IMG/VR virus record: IMGVR_UViG_3300032092_000280
Location: 1-22,701 of that record
DNA: 22,701 nucleotides
Strand: one strand, 5' to 3'
Source of the DNA: a virus
The notes beneath the pieces are model-generated. The model searched no databases. It was not told where the DNA came from and was given only the letters and a program-made list of their open reading frames with translations. Positions 6,128-22,701 of the stretch are shown here, in pieces (within the stretch, counting starts at the first letter, position 1; every line of letters starts with the position of its first letter). Both the position numbers and the translations under genes were made by a program.

Positions 6128-9100
6128 ATGGCCATTGATTACAGTCCTCAAGGCCGTCGGGTATCCCTAGGCGGCACCACATCCCGTGGGTTCAACCCCG
6201 TTCAAGCTGTCGACAATTCCGATAGGGTACTCAGGCAGGGGCAGGACGCCCTTGCGAGCTTTGCCAAGGCCCAGGAGTACAATCTGGCCAACCCGGATAA
6301 GAGCCTGGAAGCCTTGGCTGGGCTGTCCAAGACGGTCACCGAGTTCATGGTCGAGCGTCAAAAAGGGGTAAATGAGAACGACCGCAAGCTCGGCATAGCT
6401 GACATCCTCAATGGGGACATTCAGCCTAAACCTGAGGCCCTACAGACCTATCGGGAAAATACCACCCAGCTTCGAGCTGCAGCTCTCGATGAGCAGAGTG
6501 CGCTCAATGATCTCGAGAATACTCGACCCGACGTGGCTGTAGAGATTCGAGCCAATGACCCCGTGGTAAGTGGATGGCGTCAGTATGGTCGGGCCCAGGG
6601 CACTGCCATGAAGGCTGCCGCCAGCGCCGAGATGCTCTTCGAGCAGGCGATGGAGTCCACCACCAAGAACATCCCGATCATCGCCGCTGATGGCAGCGTC
6701 CGGATGATCGCACCGTCCCAAGCAGAATCTATGGCAGAATTGAACGCCGTCTGGTCCGTGGTCCTTCAGGGGTTCATTGGAGCCAGCGGTCTCGATGGGA
6801 TCAATCCCCTCCTCTTGGCTGAGCACGTCACTCCCAAGATCATGGACATCAAGACCAGGGTCTTCTCTGCCGGTGCCAAGAAGATCGCCGCCGTTCAGAA
6901 GGATCGAGCTGTCAGCGAGGTCAACGCCAGGCTGGGAGGTGCGCTGGCCAACAGCCGCATGGATGATCCTAGAAACCTGGCCTCTATCTTCCAACTTGGT
7001 GGAGCCGAATGGGCCGCTGCCGAGGGAATCAGCCGCTCTGAAGCAGACAAGAAGGTCTTGGATCGGATGGTCACGGAGGCCGTCCTTCGACAGGATGCTG
7101 CTGCTGTCGCACGCCTCAAGAGGCTTCCCCGGGCGGAAGATGGGAGCATGTCACTAGGGACACTGGAGAACAGCTTCCCCGACGTGTTTGATAATGCTCT
7201 CACTCGCATCAAGGCACTGAACAAGCAAGAAGCCGATGAGCGAAAGGCGGCCCAACTCGCCACAGTCGAGAATGCGGTCCAAGCCTATGAGAAATCAATC
7301 ATCAATGCTACGCCTGATGAAGCTGAAAAAGCCTGGAAGATAACACAGCAAACACTGACTGAAATGTCAAGAATGGGACTTGCAGGCTCCGATGCTGCTC
7401 TCATCTTGCATAATCAGAAGCCGAAGCGACGTGCAGGCATCGCCTTCGAAGATAGCTTTGTCGAGCAGTTCAATCGGAACCCCGCTCGATGGAGCAAGGC
7501 CCAGGTGCAGAAGTCCATCGCTGATGGAGAGTTCAGTCCTGGCATCTTGAACCGCCTCTCGTTTCCTGAGGATCTGGCACCAGGTAGGAAAAAGGAGTTC
7601 ACCAAGATCACCCAGGATGCAGCCAAGGCAGCCATTGCTGCTCAGCTCAAAGGAAAGGGATTCACCACTACTGATCTCGAGGGAGCAGAAGTGGTCACTC
7701 GTTCTGCTCAGTTTGCTTTTGAGATGGAGACGGAGCTACTGAAACTTGCTGCTCAGAAGCCCGACTTCTCCACTGAGGACGCCAACGCCCATATTGAGAA
7801 GATGATCTCCCGGGTTCTCAATCCAAAGACCGGAGACCGTCGATTCATTGTAAGTCCAGTTCGGGCTAACACCCCTGGTCGCCCAGTGCAGTTCCTGGCC
7901 CCCCTGGTCAACAAAACCGCAGGGGTCAATTTCACCCAGACCGGAAAAACAGCGGACATTGATTACTCTCAGATCAAGCCTGCCGATCTGAGGGGAGTCA
8001 CCGTCAAGCCCAGAGATCGGGTTATGACAAACGATACCCTGCAAACCGGCGCGGAAATCTACAGAAAAACCGGCTCCTTTCCTGGAGAGCAAAAGGATGC
8101 CATCAGGCTCAGTGGGCTCACCCAGACCGAGTTCATCAGGACTCAAAATGGTGAACCCCGGAGCCTAGCTGATCTGGCCCAGGGCCTACAGCTGGCCATC
8201 AAGGACAATCCCCGCTCCACTCCGGTTGAGCTATTCAGGGCCGACTGGCAGATCGAGCGAAAAAGGCTGCTACTCCAGAACACACCGACGCTTTCAGGCG
8301 GTGTTGCTCCAGAAACAGCCGAGCTTTTGAGAGACCTTGGCAAAAAGGAAGGGGGAGCCATGGAGTATGAGGCTGCAAACAGCGGCACAGCCGACGACAT
8401 GCGCCAAGGCATCCCAGGCCTAACCAGCATGACCATCGATCAAATTCAAGGAACCAAGGCCCACCACGTTGGGAAGTATCAGCTTCAACTGGGCAAGGGT
8501 CGCACCCTGGATCTCCTCAAGCAGAGGATGGGTCTCACTGGCACTGAACCCTTCACCCCCGAGCTTCAGGACCGCATGGCCTCTGAGCTGATCTGGGGAG
8601 GCTGGAAGCGTCCAGCCCTCACAGCCTACCTCAAGGGTGGTGGCAACCTGGAGAAGGCGGTTGCGGACTTCAACGACGAATGGGAGGCCGGCAAGCTGAG
8701 CTTCGATGCTAGGCCCTACCTCAGAAGAATGCGGGCTGCCTACCAGGTCCGTGGTGGTAGTGCTGTTGGCCTGACCGGAAACTTCCGCAAGGAGAATGTC
8801 CCCGTAGTCAACTGGGAAACCAAGGGACGAGGTGATTCCTACCAGAAGGGTGGGGTTGACATCTACTTCAACGACAAGCAGTTCCCTGCCATTGCTCCAG
8901 GTAAGGTGGTCGACATCGGGCGCCAACCTGAGGGCAAAACCAGCTATGGAATCTATGTAGTTACCGAACACAAAGATCCCAAGACCGGTCAACTCTTTCA
9001 CCTCATCAACGCACACCTCGATGCGGTCCACGTCAATGTGGGCGACTCCATCCAGGTGGGCACCATCCTCGGACGGCAGGGTTCCACAGGCAGCACGTCT

Positions 9101-19463: not shown

Positions 19464-21284
19464 ATGGCTCTATCCCAAGAACAGCTTCAGACCAAGCTAC
19501 TCTCGGATTTCTCTTTCTTCTTGCGGATCCTCTGGCGACACCTTGGCCTGCCTGAGCCTACCCGGGCACAGCTGGCGATGGCCCGCTACCTCCAGTATGG
19601 CGGGCCAAGGATCCAGCTTCAGATGTTTCGCGGGTGCGGCAAGTCCTGGGTGACAGCAGCCTTCGTGATCTGGACCCTCTACTGCGACGTGAACAAGAAG
19701 GTCCTGGTCGTTTCCGCATCCAAGCAGCGAGCCGACGACTTCAGCCTCTTCGTCCAGCGGTGCATCGTGGACTTCCCATTTCTACAGCACCTCGACAACT
19801 CAGGCAAGGACAACCGATGGAGTCGGGTGGCCTTCGACGTGAAGGGTGCCGAGCCGTCCCAGAGCCCCAGCGTCAAGAGCGTGGGCATCACGTCGGCCAT
19901 GGTGGGCTCGCGTGCCGACCTCATCGTCCCTGACGACATCGAGTCGCCCATCAACAGTGCCACCGACATCCAACGGGAAAAGCTGCTGCAGCTCACGACC
20001 GAGTTCGAGTCGATCCTGATCCCCAAACCCAGCTCGCGGATCATCTACCTGGGGACTCCACAGAGCCTCTTTACGGTCTACTCCAAGCTCGAGGTGCGAG
20101 GCTACAAGGCCCTCGTGTGGCCCAGCCGGTATCCTTCCGAAGAGTCCATCTCGAGCTACGATGGACGGCTGGCTGAGGAGCTCGAAACCGACATCAGGGA
20201 GTCGACTTTGTCTGCATTGGCGGGCCAGCCGACCGACACCCGATTCACCGACGCCCTGCTGCGGGAACGGGAGATCGTGATGGGCAAGGCCAACTTCCAG
20301 CTGCAGTTCCAGCTCGACACGTCGATGTCGGACATGCTCCGGTATCCCCTGAGGCTGGGCGATATACCGGTGGTGAGCCTGGATCCCAGGAAGTGCCCCG
20401 GCACGGTGATCTGGTCCCAGGACCCAGCCAACCGGATCGGCGACCTGGAGGCCATCTCCCTGCCCGGGGACCACTGGTTCCGACCGGCACGCCTTGGGGA
20501 CGACTGGCTGGACTGGCCCGCCGACACCATTGTGGCCGTAGACCCCTCTGGCCGTGGCAAGGACGAGACGGGCGTGGTGGTGCTGAGCCAGCTGGCCGGC
20601 AACATCTACCTGCGGGCCCTGCGGGGATTCCGGGAGGGCTACTCCGACGCTACCCTGACGGCCATCTTGAAGATGGGCCTGCAGTACGGGGCCACCCTGT
20701 GCCTCGTGGAGTCCAACTTCGGCGACGGGACCGTTGTGGCCCTCCTCCAGAAGCACGCACGGGAGATGCAGATCCCCATGACCTTCGAGGAGACCCGGGC
20801 CTTCGTCCGCAAAGAGGAGCGCATCCTGGATGCCCTCGAGCCAGTCACCACCCAGCATCGACTGATTGTCGATCGGGGTGTCGTGGAATACGACCTCGCC
20901 TCCAACCAGGACCTGCCGTTGGAGGAGAGGCTCCAGAAGACGCTGGCCTACCAGCTCACCCGCCTCAGCCGGGACAAGGGCGCCCTGAAGCACGACGACC
21001 GGGTCGATGCCTTGGCCATGGGCGTGGCCTACTTCACCGATCGGCTCAATGTGAGTCAGTTCGAGGAGTCTAAGAAGATCTCCCAGGAGGCCTACTCTGC
21101 CATGCTCCAGAGGATGGAGGAGGATCCCACGAGGTTCGTGGACGACCTGGTGCTGGGGGATGCCCGGCAGAGGCTGCAGAGGGCGGCGGAGAGGGTGGAA
21201 CAAGCTCGAAATCGACCCAGGCATGGAGGCAACGTGTCGGCCCAGGTCAGAAAGGCCATGGGAGGGGGCCAGAAAGGGCCTTGA
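19464..21284 (+). CDS. terL: Large terminase subunit (T7 gp19-like)
   Basis: This 606-residue protein is the packaging motor ATPase and nuclease. Seen: Walker A RGCGKSW (56-62), the conserved VVSASKQRADDF block, SPSVKSVGITSAMVGSRADL, Walker B L153-IVPDD with Asp157/Asp158, and the coupling motif RIIYLGTPQSL. The nuclease domain has Asp360 in VAVDPSGRGKDETG, Glu416 in VESNFGDG, and HDDRVDAL with Asp511, Asp512 and Asp515. All catalytic residues are intact, and the match to T7 gp19 (586 residues) is clear along the length. The C-terminal tail (about 560-606) is Arg/Gln/Gly-rich and unlike the acidic T7 tail. The gene begins seven bases after a terminator, without a clear Shine-Dalgarno. A long antisense open frame inside it (19800-21224) is a GC-bias shadow. 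Confidence 0.97.
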   Translation: MALSQEQLQTKLLSDFSFFLRILWRHLGLPEPTRAQLAMARYLQYGGPRIQLQMFRGCGKSWVTAAFVIWTLYCDVNKKVLVVSASKQRADDFSLFVQRCIVDFPFLQHLDNSGKDNRWSRVAFDVKGAEPSQSPSVKSVGITSAMVGSRADLIVPDDIESPINSATDIQREKLLQLTTEFESILIPKPSSRIIYLGTPQSLFTVYSKLEVRGYKALVWPSRYPSEESISSYDGRLAEELETDIRESTLSALAGQPTDTRFTDALLREREIVMGKANFQLQFQLDTSMSDMLRYPLRLGDIPVVSLDPRKCPGTVIWSQDPANRIGDLEAISLPGDHWFRPARLGDDWLDWPADTIVAVDPSGRGKDETGVVVLSQLAGNIYLRALRGFREGYSDATLTAILKMGLQYGATLCLVESNFGDGTVVALLQKHAREMQIPMTFEETRAFVRKEERILDALEPVTTQHRLIVDRGVVEYDLASNQDLPLEERLQKTLAYQLTRLSRDKGALKHDDRVDALAMGVAYFTDRLNVSQFEESKKISQEAYSAMLQRMEEDPTRFVDDLVLGDARQRLQRAAERVEQARNRPRHGGNVSAQVRKAMGGGQKGP

Positions 21285-21301
21285 AGGGGGCCGAAGGGGG
21301 G
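21264..21301 (+). other. G-quadruplex-type G-run cluster at the terminase stop
   Basis: Four G runs (21264-21268, 21276-21278, 21286-21290, 21296-21301) are separated by 7, 7 and 5 bases, which fits the classical G4 pattern. They span the terL stop codon on the coding strand. The last run can also pair with a six-C run at 21335-21340, forming a stem between the two convergent genes. Folding is predicted only from the pattern. Confidence 0.55.
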
Positions 21302-21349
21302 AATTACCCGATCGACCCTGGAAGGGCCTTCCTGCCCCCCGTTTACTGG

Positions 21350-21658
21350 CTATTTCCCTGAAGAAGCCCTGGCTGCCGACAGACGCTCCCCTGCAGCTGC
21401 CCGGTTGACCTTCTCCTCCTCGGTCAGGAACTGATCCCGAGCTGACCCGTCGGAGAGGACCAGGAGCTTGTCGACCCCTCGGACCTGCTCCAAGGGGTAG
21501 GTGACCTCGTAGCCGGGGTTGAGCTCGTGGGCCTTGAGGTACTGGGGGTTCCGGTGGACCAATCCCAAGAAGACCGACCGCTTGGTGGTATAGAAGTTGA
21601 CCGTGCGGTGGGTGTGGTCGATCTGGACGGTGGTTTCAGCAATGTCGAAGGCAGGCAT
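21350..21658 (-). CDS. Minus-strand gene of unknown function, convergent with terL
   Basis: This 102-residue protein is encoded on the opposite strand to all other genes here. Seen: MPAFDIAETTVQIDHTHRTV, then NFYTTKRSVFLGLVHRNPQY, then KAHELNPGYEVTYPLEQVRG and KLLVLSDGS, with a charged C-terminal helix (TEEEKVNRAAAGERL). The balanced composition, and a sensible alternation of beta-like segments ending in a helix, support real coding. I associate similar short proteins (with an ELNPGYEVTYPL-like block) with T7-like cyanophages, but no function is known to me. The start at 21658 is preferred because the open frame upstream (to 21739) reads a basic, unstructured stretch. No Shine-Dalgarno is visible. 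It ends 66 bases from the terL stop. Confidence 0.68.
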   Translation of the reverse strand: MPAFDIAETTVQIDHTHRTVNFYTTKRSVFLGLVHRNPQYLKAHELNPGYEVTYPLEQVRGVDKLLVLSDGSARDQFLTEEEKVNRAAAGERLSAARASSGK

Positions 21659-21854
21659 GGAAGGGGTGACCCATGGATGTGGCCCCTTGATCCTAGCGCC
21701 CCTTCGGGTCTTTTGTCGACCCCCTTGATGGATCGACACCCAAACCAGTCATGCTAAGGGTTTTCAGAGCTTTCCACCTAAAGGAGAGGCGCGAAACCGC
21801 GACCCACTGGGATGGAAGTTTGGGGAGATGAGAAAAAAACCTCCTTTCATTTAA

Positions 21855-21964
21855 TCCCGTCATCCCATACATGTAACTTGTCTATATCCAGATATATCCT
21901 ATTATAGCTGCTCTAGGTCCTCCCATCCCCATCTCTAGCTCTAGGAGGGGTAGGGATGATGGGA
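21855..21964. repeat. Spaced inverted repeat enclosing the promoter-like element
   Basis: TCCCGTCATCCC (21855-21866) is complementary to GGGATGATGGGA (21953-21964) with a single G-T wobble. The arms enclose 86 bases that include the promoter-like hexamers. It could be a cruciform, an operator pair, or chance in a purine/pyrimidine-skewed stretch. Confidence 0.45.
21878..21905 (+). promoter_or_regulatory. Candidate sigma-70 promoter for the downstream small genes
   Basis: TTGTCT (21878-21883, four of six matches to the -35 consensus) is separated by 16 bases from TATTAT (21900-21905, five of six matches to the -10 consensus). It lies in the most A/T-rich part of the window, 111 bases before the start at 22017. 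The complementary strand reads TATAAT at 21906-21901 but has no good -35 partner. Confidence 0.45.
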
Positions 21965-21994
21965 CCCAGCAGAACATGCTCAGAATCCCTTCGT

Positions 21995-22007
21995 GTGCCA
22001 GTGGCAC
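21995..22007. promoter_or_regulatory. Perfect dyad GTGCCA-G-TGGCAC just before a start codon
   Basis: The two six-base half-sites are perfectly symmetric around G22001. The dyad ends nine bases before ATG 22017, where a ribosome binding site would be expected, and no Shine-Dalgarno is present. It may be an RNA hairpin that limits translation or a repressor site. Confidence 0.4.
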
Positions 22008-22016
22008 TCCTGTCCT

Positions 22017-22262
22017 ATGACCCAGATCAACCGCCACCTGACAGTGTGGCAAGGTCCGAATGATGTCCAACTCCACCTGACCGATCCTTATGGCCATGTC
22101 AACGGCGTGGTCTCCCTGAGCCTGACCGAGTGCCAAGACCTGAGCGAGGCCCTGGATTCCCTTCGACCCATCGAGGTGATTGATGTGGAAGCCGTGGTGG
22201 TCGAGTCCGAGCCTGAGGAAGAAACTGAGGAAGACGACGACCTTGAGTACGGTGTGAAGTGA
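22017..22262 (+). CDS. Small acidic protein of unknown function
   Basis: This 81-residue protein has a compact first part (TQINRHLTVWQGPNDVQLHL, then GHVNGVVSLSLTECQDLSEA) that looks like a small beta-strand/helix fold, and a very acidic C-terminal tail (SEPEEETEEDDDLEYGVK). About a quarter of all residues are Asp or Glu. The ATG at 22017 is preferred to a GTG at 21993, because the latter would place the dyad hairpin inside the gene. I do not recognise a family. The acidic tail recalls phage DNA-mimic or host-polymerase-binding proteins, which is speculative. The stop overlaps a GTG start of the next small frame (GTGA). Confidence 0.62.
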   Translation: MTQINRHLTVWQGPNDVQLHLTDPYGHVNGVVSLSLTECQDLSEALDSLRPIEVIDVEAVVVESEPEEETEEDDDLEYGVK

Positions 22263-22384
22263 CCCCAGAGCAGGCACGGAAGGTCCTCGCTGCGGCGCCG
22301 GCCGGGTCGGTCTATGCCGAGATGGCACGAAAGGTCCTCAAGGAGGCTGCAGGGTCTGCCCCTCAACCTCCGGTGAAATTCTAG
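22259..22384 (+). CDS. 41-residue protein, coupled to the acidic gene
   Basis: A short open frame begins with GTG at 22259, overlapping the previous stop as GTGA, the same coupling seen at 14673, and ends with TAG at 22382-22384. The product is a mostly helical peptide: TPEQARKVLAAAPAGSV, then YAEMARKVLKEAAGSA, then a Pro-rich end PQPPVKF. Two ARKVL motifs 22 residues apart suggest two short similar helices. The composition is protein-like and the frame is clean, but the length leaves real doubt. No family is recognised. Confidence 0.45.
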   Translation: MTPEQARKVLAAAPAGSVYAEMARKVLKEAAGSAPQPPVKF

Positions 22385-22460
22385 CAGAAAAATCCGTTGG
22401 GGGTACGCCTGCTGGCGGCGGCCCCAATCCCCCCCATGCCCCCCTTCGATCCTGGATTGG

Positions 22461-22490
22461 GCGGGCCAATCGCGGGCCAAGGCGGGCCAA
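22461..22490 (+). repeat. Three iteron-like copies of GCGGGCCAA
   Basis: Exact nine-base copies lie at 22461-22469, 22472-22480 and 22482-22490, separated by two and one bases, so they repeat every 10 to 11 bases and fall on one face of the helix. This spacing is typical of protein-binding iterons at origins or packaging sites. Confidence 0.75.
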
Positions 22491-22542
22491 TCATGCCGCC
22501 GATGCCTGCAAACCATTGGTATCACTGGGATCTCAGCCTCTC

Positions 22543-22569
22543 GCGTACCTGCTTCATAGACAGGTACGC
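22543..22569. repeat. Perfect nine-base inverted repeat
   Basis: GCGTACCTG (22543-22551) and CAGGTACGC (22561-22569) flank a nine-base spacer. As RNA it would form a hairpin with a nine-base loop. No T run follows on either strand, so it is not a standard terminator. An operator or a site for DNA processing is more likely. Confidence 0.7.
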
Positions 22570-22571
22570 AT

Positions 22572-22651
22572 GGTTGGCCGGCCTGTCTCATAAGCTGAGC
22601 TTATCGTAAAATTCTCTATCTATAATTTGGGCTTATACCACGGTTGGCCGG
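22572..22651 (+). repeat. Two direct copies of GGTTGGCCGG flanking a promoter-like element
   Basis: Identical ten-base copies lie at 22572-22581 and 22642-22651, 70 bases apart, on either side of the 15-base dyad and the TATAAT box. The first copy overlaps the palindrome GGCCGGCC (22576-22583). Confidence 0.65.
22590..22626 (+). promoter_or_regulatory. Candidate host-type promoter with an operator-like dyad
   Basis: TATAAT (22621-22626) is a perfect -10 hexamer in an A/T-rich patch. The -35 position (about 22598-22603, AGCTTA) is poor but coincides with the perfect dyad ATAAGCT-G-AGCTTAT (22590-22604). A protein bound there could repress or activate. Its direction would drive genes beyond the right edge of the window. 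Confidence 0.45.
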
Positions 22652-22701
22652 TGGGGATTGTGTGGTTTTGTGTTTGGTGGATCAGTCGCGTTTTTCTCAA
22701 T

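Follow-up and report, generated by a model that had tools for sequence, protein, structure and literature searches.

A candidate picocyanobacterial dif site carried at the predicted genome end of a T7-like cyanophage

Introduction

IMEX phages, namely CTXphi-type filamentous phages and gokushoviruses, lack an integrase of their own and carry a dif-like site that is used by the XerCD recombinases of the host, while phage P1 has a loxP site near pac and a recombinase of its own. At loxP, as at the cer site of ColE1, site-specific recombination serves to resolve redundant DNA or to close it into a circle. Other dif systems work with a single recombinase, one paper naming XerS and XerH and also ascribing accessory sequences to cer (PMC5357621). 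The closest precedent for the locus described here is the single-recombinase system of Legionella, in which a dif mimic on a mobile element reportedly led to the discovery of the site, whose arms are perfectly symmetric (PMC9765430). In a further paper (PMC8776855), T7-like cyanophages with an integrase are described as integrating transiently at tRNA-Leu, and P-SSP7 and S-TIP37 as undergoing recombination with the chromosome but not stable lysogeny.

For cyanobacterial dif, a large survey by Kono and colleagues states that prediction failed in all Cyanobacteria tried (PMC3025954), and a 2019 genome paper gives no predicted dif sites in cyanobacteria (PMC6416890). In Prochlorococcus MED4, another study marks dif by position within 826,000–832,000 and places the highest vesicle-DNA peak at that position (PMC10913375). 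In the open-licence literature that we searched, we found no report of the 27-bp picocyanobacterial site described below.

Here we analyse the right end of a freshwater T7-like phage fragment of 22.7 kb (the whole stretch studied, hereafter the window). Comparison with viral and host sequences suggests that an inverted repeat in this region is probably a phage-borne copy of picocyanobacterial dif, serving as a site for the recombinase of the host.

Results and Discussion

The terminase, nozzle, internal virion and major capsid proteins of the window match T7-type families, and the best named relatives of the terminase are phages of Synechococcus and Prochlorococcus. A phage DNA similarity search gave weak matches only, nearly all under terminase genes; a tRNA scan found none, and Rfam recognised no family in the window, its relatives or 10 host loci. 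The right end contains the following features.

19464–21284, plus strand: terminase large subunit of T7 type; its stop precedes the core by 1,259 bp
21350–21739, leftward: ORF after the terminase
21993–22262: 89-aa ORF after the terminase
22259–22384, plus strand: conserved 41-aa ORF, the last gene ahead of the intergenic stretch
22461–22490, minus strand: three GCGGGCCAA copies (TTGGCCCGC on that strand), poorly conserved
22516–22536, minus strand: A-box TTGGTATCACTGGGATCTCAG, matching CAGTSRTAGCAA at 11 of 12 positions
22543–22569, no strand assigned: core, a 27-bp dif-like site, GCGTACCTG-CTTCATAGA-CAGGTACGC
22552–22560, plus strand: 9-bp central region CTTCATAGA, the proposed crossover region
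22572–22581, plus strand: first GGTTGGCCGG copy, which has TTGGCC in common with the three repeats
22621–22626, plus strand: TATAAT hexamer with no matching -35, kept in L004 only among aligned relatives
22642–22651, plus strand: second GGTTGGCCGG copy, within the partly conserved block TATACCACGG..GGTGGGGATTGTGTGGTTTTG
22691–22701, plus strand: left arm TTTTTCTCAAT of a second dyad; the contig stops inside the arm

No conserved coding sequence was found from 22384, where the last small ORF stops, to the end of the window, and the reading frame over the repeats is broken in relatives (by a 2-base indel in the alignment with L004), confirming that 22422–22651 is intergenic, as the preliminary description had proposed. 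In T7-like phages, the interval from the terminase to the early genes is where the terminal repeat is located. Two circular relatives, G003 and G004, have the equivalent non-coding stretch in just this interval, running on into early genes in G003 and carrying the equivalent site downstream of the terminase in G004, and because of this arrangement the flagged bases appear to hold the T7 genome-end place. Synteny thus supports the earlier suggestion of a genome end. The exact end overlaps of these two records (99 bp in G003, 127 bp in G004) look like assembler overlaps. Across viruses, 7 of 49 sites lay no more than 300 bp from the end of their contig, against 2.9 expected (P ~0.03), an excess too weak to point to the terminus.

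Several repeats had been reported within these 230 bases. Exact GCGGGCCAA copies start at 22461, 22472 and 22482, phased at spacings of 11 and 10 (a triple 9-mer arose in 0.03% of 3,000 base shuffles); the perfect nine-base inverted repeat occupies 22543–22551 and 22561–22569 around a 9-nt spacer; and two GGTTGGCCGG copies and a TATAAT hexamer are present, starting at 22572, 22642 and 22621, respectively. The supposed 15-base dyad does have a dyad-like match, but one of only 14 nt and 79% (22551–22564/22582–22595). The functions first suggested for these elements fared less well. We rejected the GCGGGCCAA copies as iterons of a replication origin, bound by a replication protein, because the phased array is not conserved: it is degenerate in L010 and L005, appears as three inverted copies in L004, and is absent in the aligned G003, L003 and L002. 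A sigma-70 scan of 21285–22701 placed no site inside 22422–22651; the TATAAT hexamer thus lacks promoter context, and the proposed early promoter is not supported.

The inverted repeat GCGTACCTG-N9-CAGGTACGC itself is kept in L004, L005 and L010, with a varying 9-nt centre; in the complete G003 its right arm has decayed, and the site was found in 0 of 18 cyanopodovirus isolates. Scanning IMG/VR with spacers of 7 to 11 allowed, we recovered the two arms in 52 viral stretches, with a spacer of exactly 9 in 49 of them (~0.75 expected) and spacers of 7, 8, 10 and 11 in 1, 0, 0 and 2. Of the 52, fifteen have a gene for a T7-like terminase or RNA polymerase, and others have a different terminase or a portal. 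A control palindrome, GCGTGCCTG, which consists of the core arms with one symmetric change, occurred in 6 stretches, none of them with a spacer of 9 or a TGTCCA box. From the window by itself, the repeats could be put down to chance, or the palindrome to the hairpin of an intrinsic terminator, as shuffling the 230 bases 3,000 times gave a perfect 9-bp inverted repeat at a comparable distance in 1.4% of cases; yet chance is contradicted by the spacer-9 excess, the control palindrome and the host genome scan described below, no terminator-like site is present, and we regard this explanation as barely credible.

The viral centres are diverse. For these and the box counts below, L045, L072 and L073, which duplicate the contigs L004, L010 and L005, were counted once, and L054, L062 and L085 (spacers 11, 7 and 11) were excluded. 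The 50 sites used hold 38 distinct centres, one of which matches a host centre; that of the window differs from those of hosts, and the host-identical centre CTGTAGACA was found in phages in L063, L068 and L081 only.

The same pattern was matched by 80 genome stretches. By title, 65 are cyanobacterial, and the genera named among these are almost all Synechococcus, Cyanobium, Vulcanococcus or Prochlorococcus. The 15 stretches with non-cyanobacterial titles were excluded from the host counts of J-domain genes, centres, A-boxes and TGTCCA; L148, which bears such a title, has the same flanks as phage contigs L057 and L074. At up to two mismatches, 195 of 400 picocyanobacterial-family genomes were positive and 205 gave no match, perhaps being incomplete or having more diverged arms, while the reversed pattern used as a control matched in 17 of the 400. 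Copies per genome, counted by eye, numbered exactly one in 186 of the 195 positive genomes and two or three in the remaining 9, where the extra copies mostly have a broken arm. One copy per chromosome is what a chromosomal dif should show. The size and structure also agree with a dif of ~28 bp having two arms and a polar centre: the host site spans 27 bp, its arms covary (GCGTAACTG..CAGTTACGC, GCGTATCTG..CAGATACGC, GAGTACCTG..CAGGTACTC), varying by lineage with complementarity mostly kept, and its centre reads C-T-g-t-A-G-A-C-A, where 9 bp is the span between the conserved arms and the length of the crossover may differ.

The chromosomal site also has a fixed setting. A J-domain protein gene was found at 53 of the 65 host loci, always reading towards the site, which lies 210–1,210 bp downstream in all 53, with the same polarity of the centre in each. 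Using dnaN as a proxy for oriC, the site was 0.385–0.489 of the circle away in 8/8 testable chromosomes (P ~8e-6 if position were uniform), as expected near the replication terminus; dnaN was on the contig of the site in 7 of 17 genomes picked by eye for large contigs, and G007 was the eighth. GC skew was weak, with a local maximum near 2.52 Mb in G007, ~10 kb from the site at 2.53 Mb, and a noisy profile in G014. A palindrome in intergenic space with other repeats nearby could instead be an operator for a DNA-binding regulator of host or phage. That reading is quite unlikely, as it is at odds with the single copy per host genome, the constant placement past the J-domain gene and the position opposite dnaN, and a uniformly oriented polar centre would not be expected of an operator.

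When the host-arm variants were in turn searched in viruses, 3 + 2 matches were obtained, every one with a spacer of 9. The sole genuine-looking one is a single virus, L378/L379, with Prochlorococcus-type arms and two TGTCCA; the other three, which lack an accessory box, could be chance matches.

We looked for a host enzyme that could serve this site. A divergent core tyrosine recombinase of ~390 aa was present in 10 of 10 inspected genomes, the nine others having orthologues 54–67% identical to the G042 protein. Columns R, K, RH..R, H and Y, which we take to be the catalytic residues of tyrosine recombinases, are conserved in seven aligned sequences. In G042 this protein is the only PF00589 match. 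The core recombinase scores 32.3 bits with PF00589 (cut-off 27.1), 21.7 with XerA (220), 19.4 with XerS (267) and 14.7 with XerD (329.6). Since it falls far under the Xer cut-offs, we describe it as working like Xer rather than as being XerCD. Its gene lies hundreds of kb away from the site in G014, G042 and G063, and none of the viral loci L001–L087 and L258–L262 encodes it. That this enzyme acts on the site is our proposal.

One conserved tyrosine recombinase together with a short intergenic site near the terminus, built of inverted arms on either side of a centre, resembles the arrangement of XerS/difSL, XerH/difH and XerL of the Legionellales. Among the differences, the site and the recombinase gene are unlinked, unlike in XerS and XerH, the recombinase falls under every Xer cut-off, and TGTCCA boxes stand beside the chromosomal site. 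We know of no arm similarity between the picocyanobacterial site and the dif sites of XerS, XerH or XerL systems.

These boxes are common to host and phage. Within 150 bp of host cores TGTCCA is 16.6-fold denser than elsewhere in the loci (56 of 65), and beside phage cores it is 13.2-fold enriched (28 of 41 loci, nine look-alikes among the 50 having been removed by eye); two control hexamers showed no enrichment beside cores. The window has no TGTCCA. It does have five copies of TTGGCC, in the three GCGGGCCAA repeats and the two GGTTGGCCGG copies, which may represent diverged TGTCCA boxes, and the GCGGGCCAA array is thus a possible set of diverged accessory boxes. An A-box is present, TTGGTATCACTGGGATCTCAG being the reverse complement of the CTSAGATCCCAGTGRTASCAA block at host cores L108 and L114. 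With the query CAGTSRTAGCAA, defined on host sites, A-boxes matching at 10 or more of 12 positions stand beside 16 of 50 phage sites (0.98 expected) and 9 of 65 host sites (1.5 expected). Near the core of L061, L064 and L080 we also observed a palindrome, TGAGAAT..TTCTCA, presumably resembling a Fur box.

If the host site is dif, the phage copy might still act as a decoy, titrating the host recombinase so as to block division, without being a recombination substrate. Phage centres, mostly unlike those of hosts, would fit such a role, but many phage copies retain the accessory boxes and the three contigs noted above have the exact host centre, and we think a decoy very unlikely.

We then considered whether the phages encode a recombinase. 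PF00589 was found in 0 of 5 T7-like records with the site (G000, G001, G004, G408 and G409), a small sample in which two records are fragments of ~23 kb. By comparison, 4 of 6 T7-like isolates lacking the site have the domain; site and domain are both missing from G003, P60 and DSL-LC07. Among all site-bearing records searched, several of them fragments, the window included, 1 of 15 had a match (G418). The site-bearing T7-like phages resemble IMEX phages in having a dif-like site with accessory context and no integrase of their own, which suggests that they may use the recombination enzyme of the host. IMEX phages, however, are small ssDNA phages with proven integration, whereas these are tailed dsDNA phages for which integration is putative: no T7-like provirus was found at the site, and a search of viral contigs found no provirus flanked by the J-domain gene. 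P-SSP7 and S-TIP37, marine T7-like phages of related hosts with int and attP, differ in having their own integrase.

The position of the core near a terminase in several lineages could also indicate a packaging or concatemer-junction element, either pac/cos, as the preliminary description offered, or a T7-type end-processing hairpin, with the likeness to the host being secondary. The core lies ~1.3 kb downstream of the terminase in the window, 1.4–1.6 kb from it in L079 and L035, ~1.2–1.8 kb upstream in L043, L056, L063, L080 and L083, and 0.2–0.5 kb away in L044, L046 and L070. In L057, by contrast, the distance is ~8 kb, and 18 isolates with homologous terminases all lack the core. Moreover, the inverted repeat extends to unrelated phages, plasmid-like DNA and the chromosomes of hosts, where the same core, accompanied by its boxes, is present in single copy; a circular plasmid-like contig has it as well. 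A packaging element is therefore unlikely.

There are signs that mobile DNA exploits the site. Contig L367 of Synechococcus Cruz-7E5 (10,387 bp) looks circular, with a 127-bp end overlap, has one site, encodes a 1057-aa DUF3854 protein and is probably a plasmid. In G180, a 9.45-kb Prochlorococcus-like island (1036572–1046052; L363 3573–13053) lies between two dif-like sites, adjoined by a gene for its own 529-aa PF00589 tyrosine recombinase. A gene of this island looks, in our judgement, like a photolyase.

Returning to the interpretation of the repeat as a phage-borne dif, the two 9-bp arms would be bound by a tyrosine recombinase and strands exchanged within the 9-bp centre, with TGTCCA and the A-box as accessory boxes beside the core, and the host site, present once near the replication terminus, would be the target of the one divergent ~390-aa enzyme. 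Because the site-bearing T7-like records checked have no integrase, the host enzyme would act on the phage site. Copies on concatemers or repeated ends could in this way be resolved or circularised, as with loxP and cer, although P1 supplies its own recombinase and cer is a plasmid site; alternatively, the phage site could recombine with the host site, leading to transient integration. Recombination between phage sites may be at least as likely as integration, since the host-identical centre is confined to L063, L068 and L081.

More tentatively, and with somewhat less conviction than doubt, picocyanobacteria could have their own single-recombinase dimer-resolution system, made up of a 27-bp dif, TGTCCA accessory boxes and a core recombinase that belongs to none of the known Xer families, with several unrelated cyanophage lineages, lytic-looking T7-like phages included, carrying its dif near their genome ends and relying on the host enzyme, in place of an integrase, for circularisation, resolution or transient integration. 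Having a candidate site and recombinase makes chromosome segregation directly testable in Synechococcus and Prochlorococcus, which are abundant photosynthetic bacteria. The two would also offer an explanation of how integrase-less T7-like cyanophages interact with the host chromosome, and the site would provide a sequence tag linking uncultured phages to picocyanobacterial hosts.

Three further elements were observed around the right end. The right arm of the second dyad, TTATTGAGAAT, was found in L010, L005, L002, L001, L017 and G003, and the conserved dyad ATTCTCAATAA..TTATTGAGAAT is seen at L010 6895, L002 7183 and L030 765. A conserved C-rich block, CCCCAATCCCCCCCATGCCCCCC, at 22423–22446 has G-quadruplex potential on the minus strand and lies near an invariant GGGGTACGCCT. 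Lastly, a 64-bp intergenic stretch at 21746–21809, which is conserved among the aligned close relatives, matches G003 7040–7103, within the RNA polymerase gene (SHAKVSQSFPVKGETRNRDPL), at 86% identity and has a weaker match in G004, likewise inside the polymerase frame; duplication of a promoter or of a structured element is a possible explanation.
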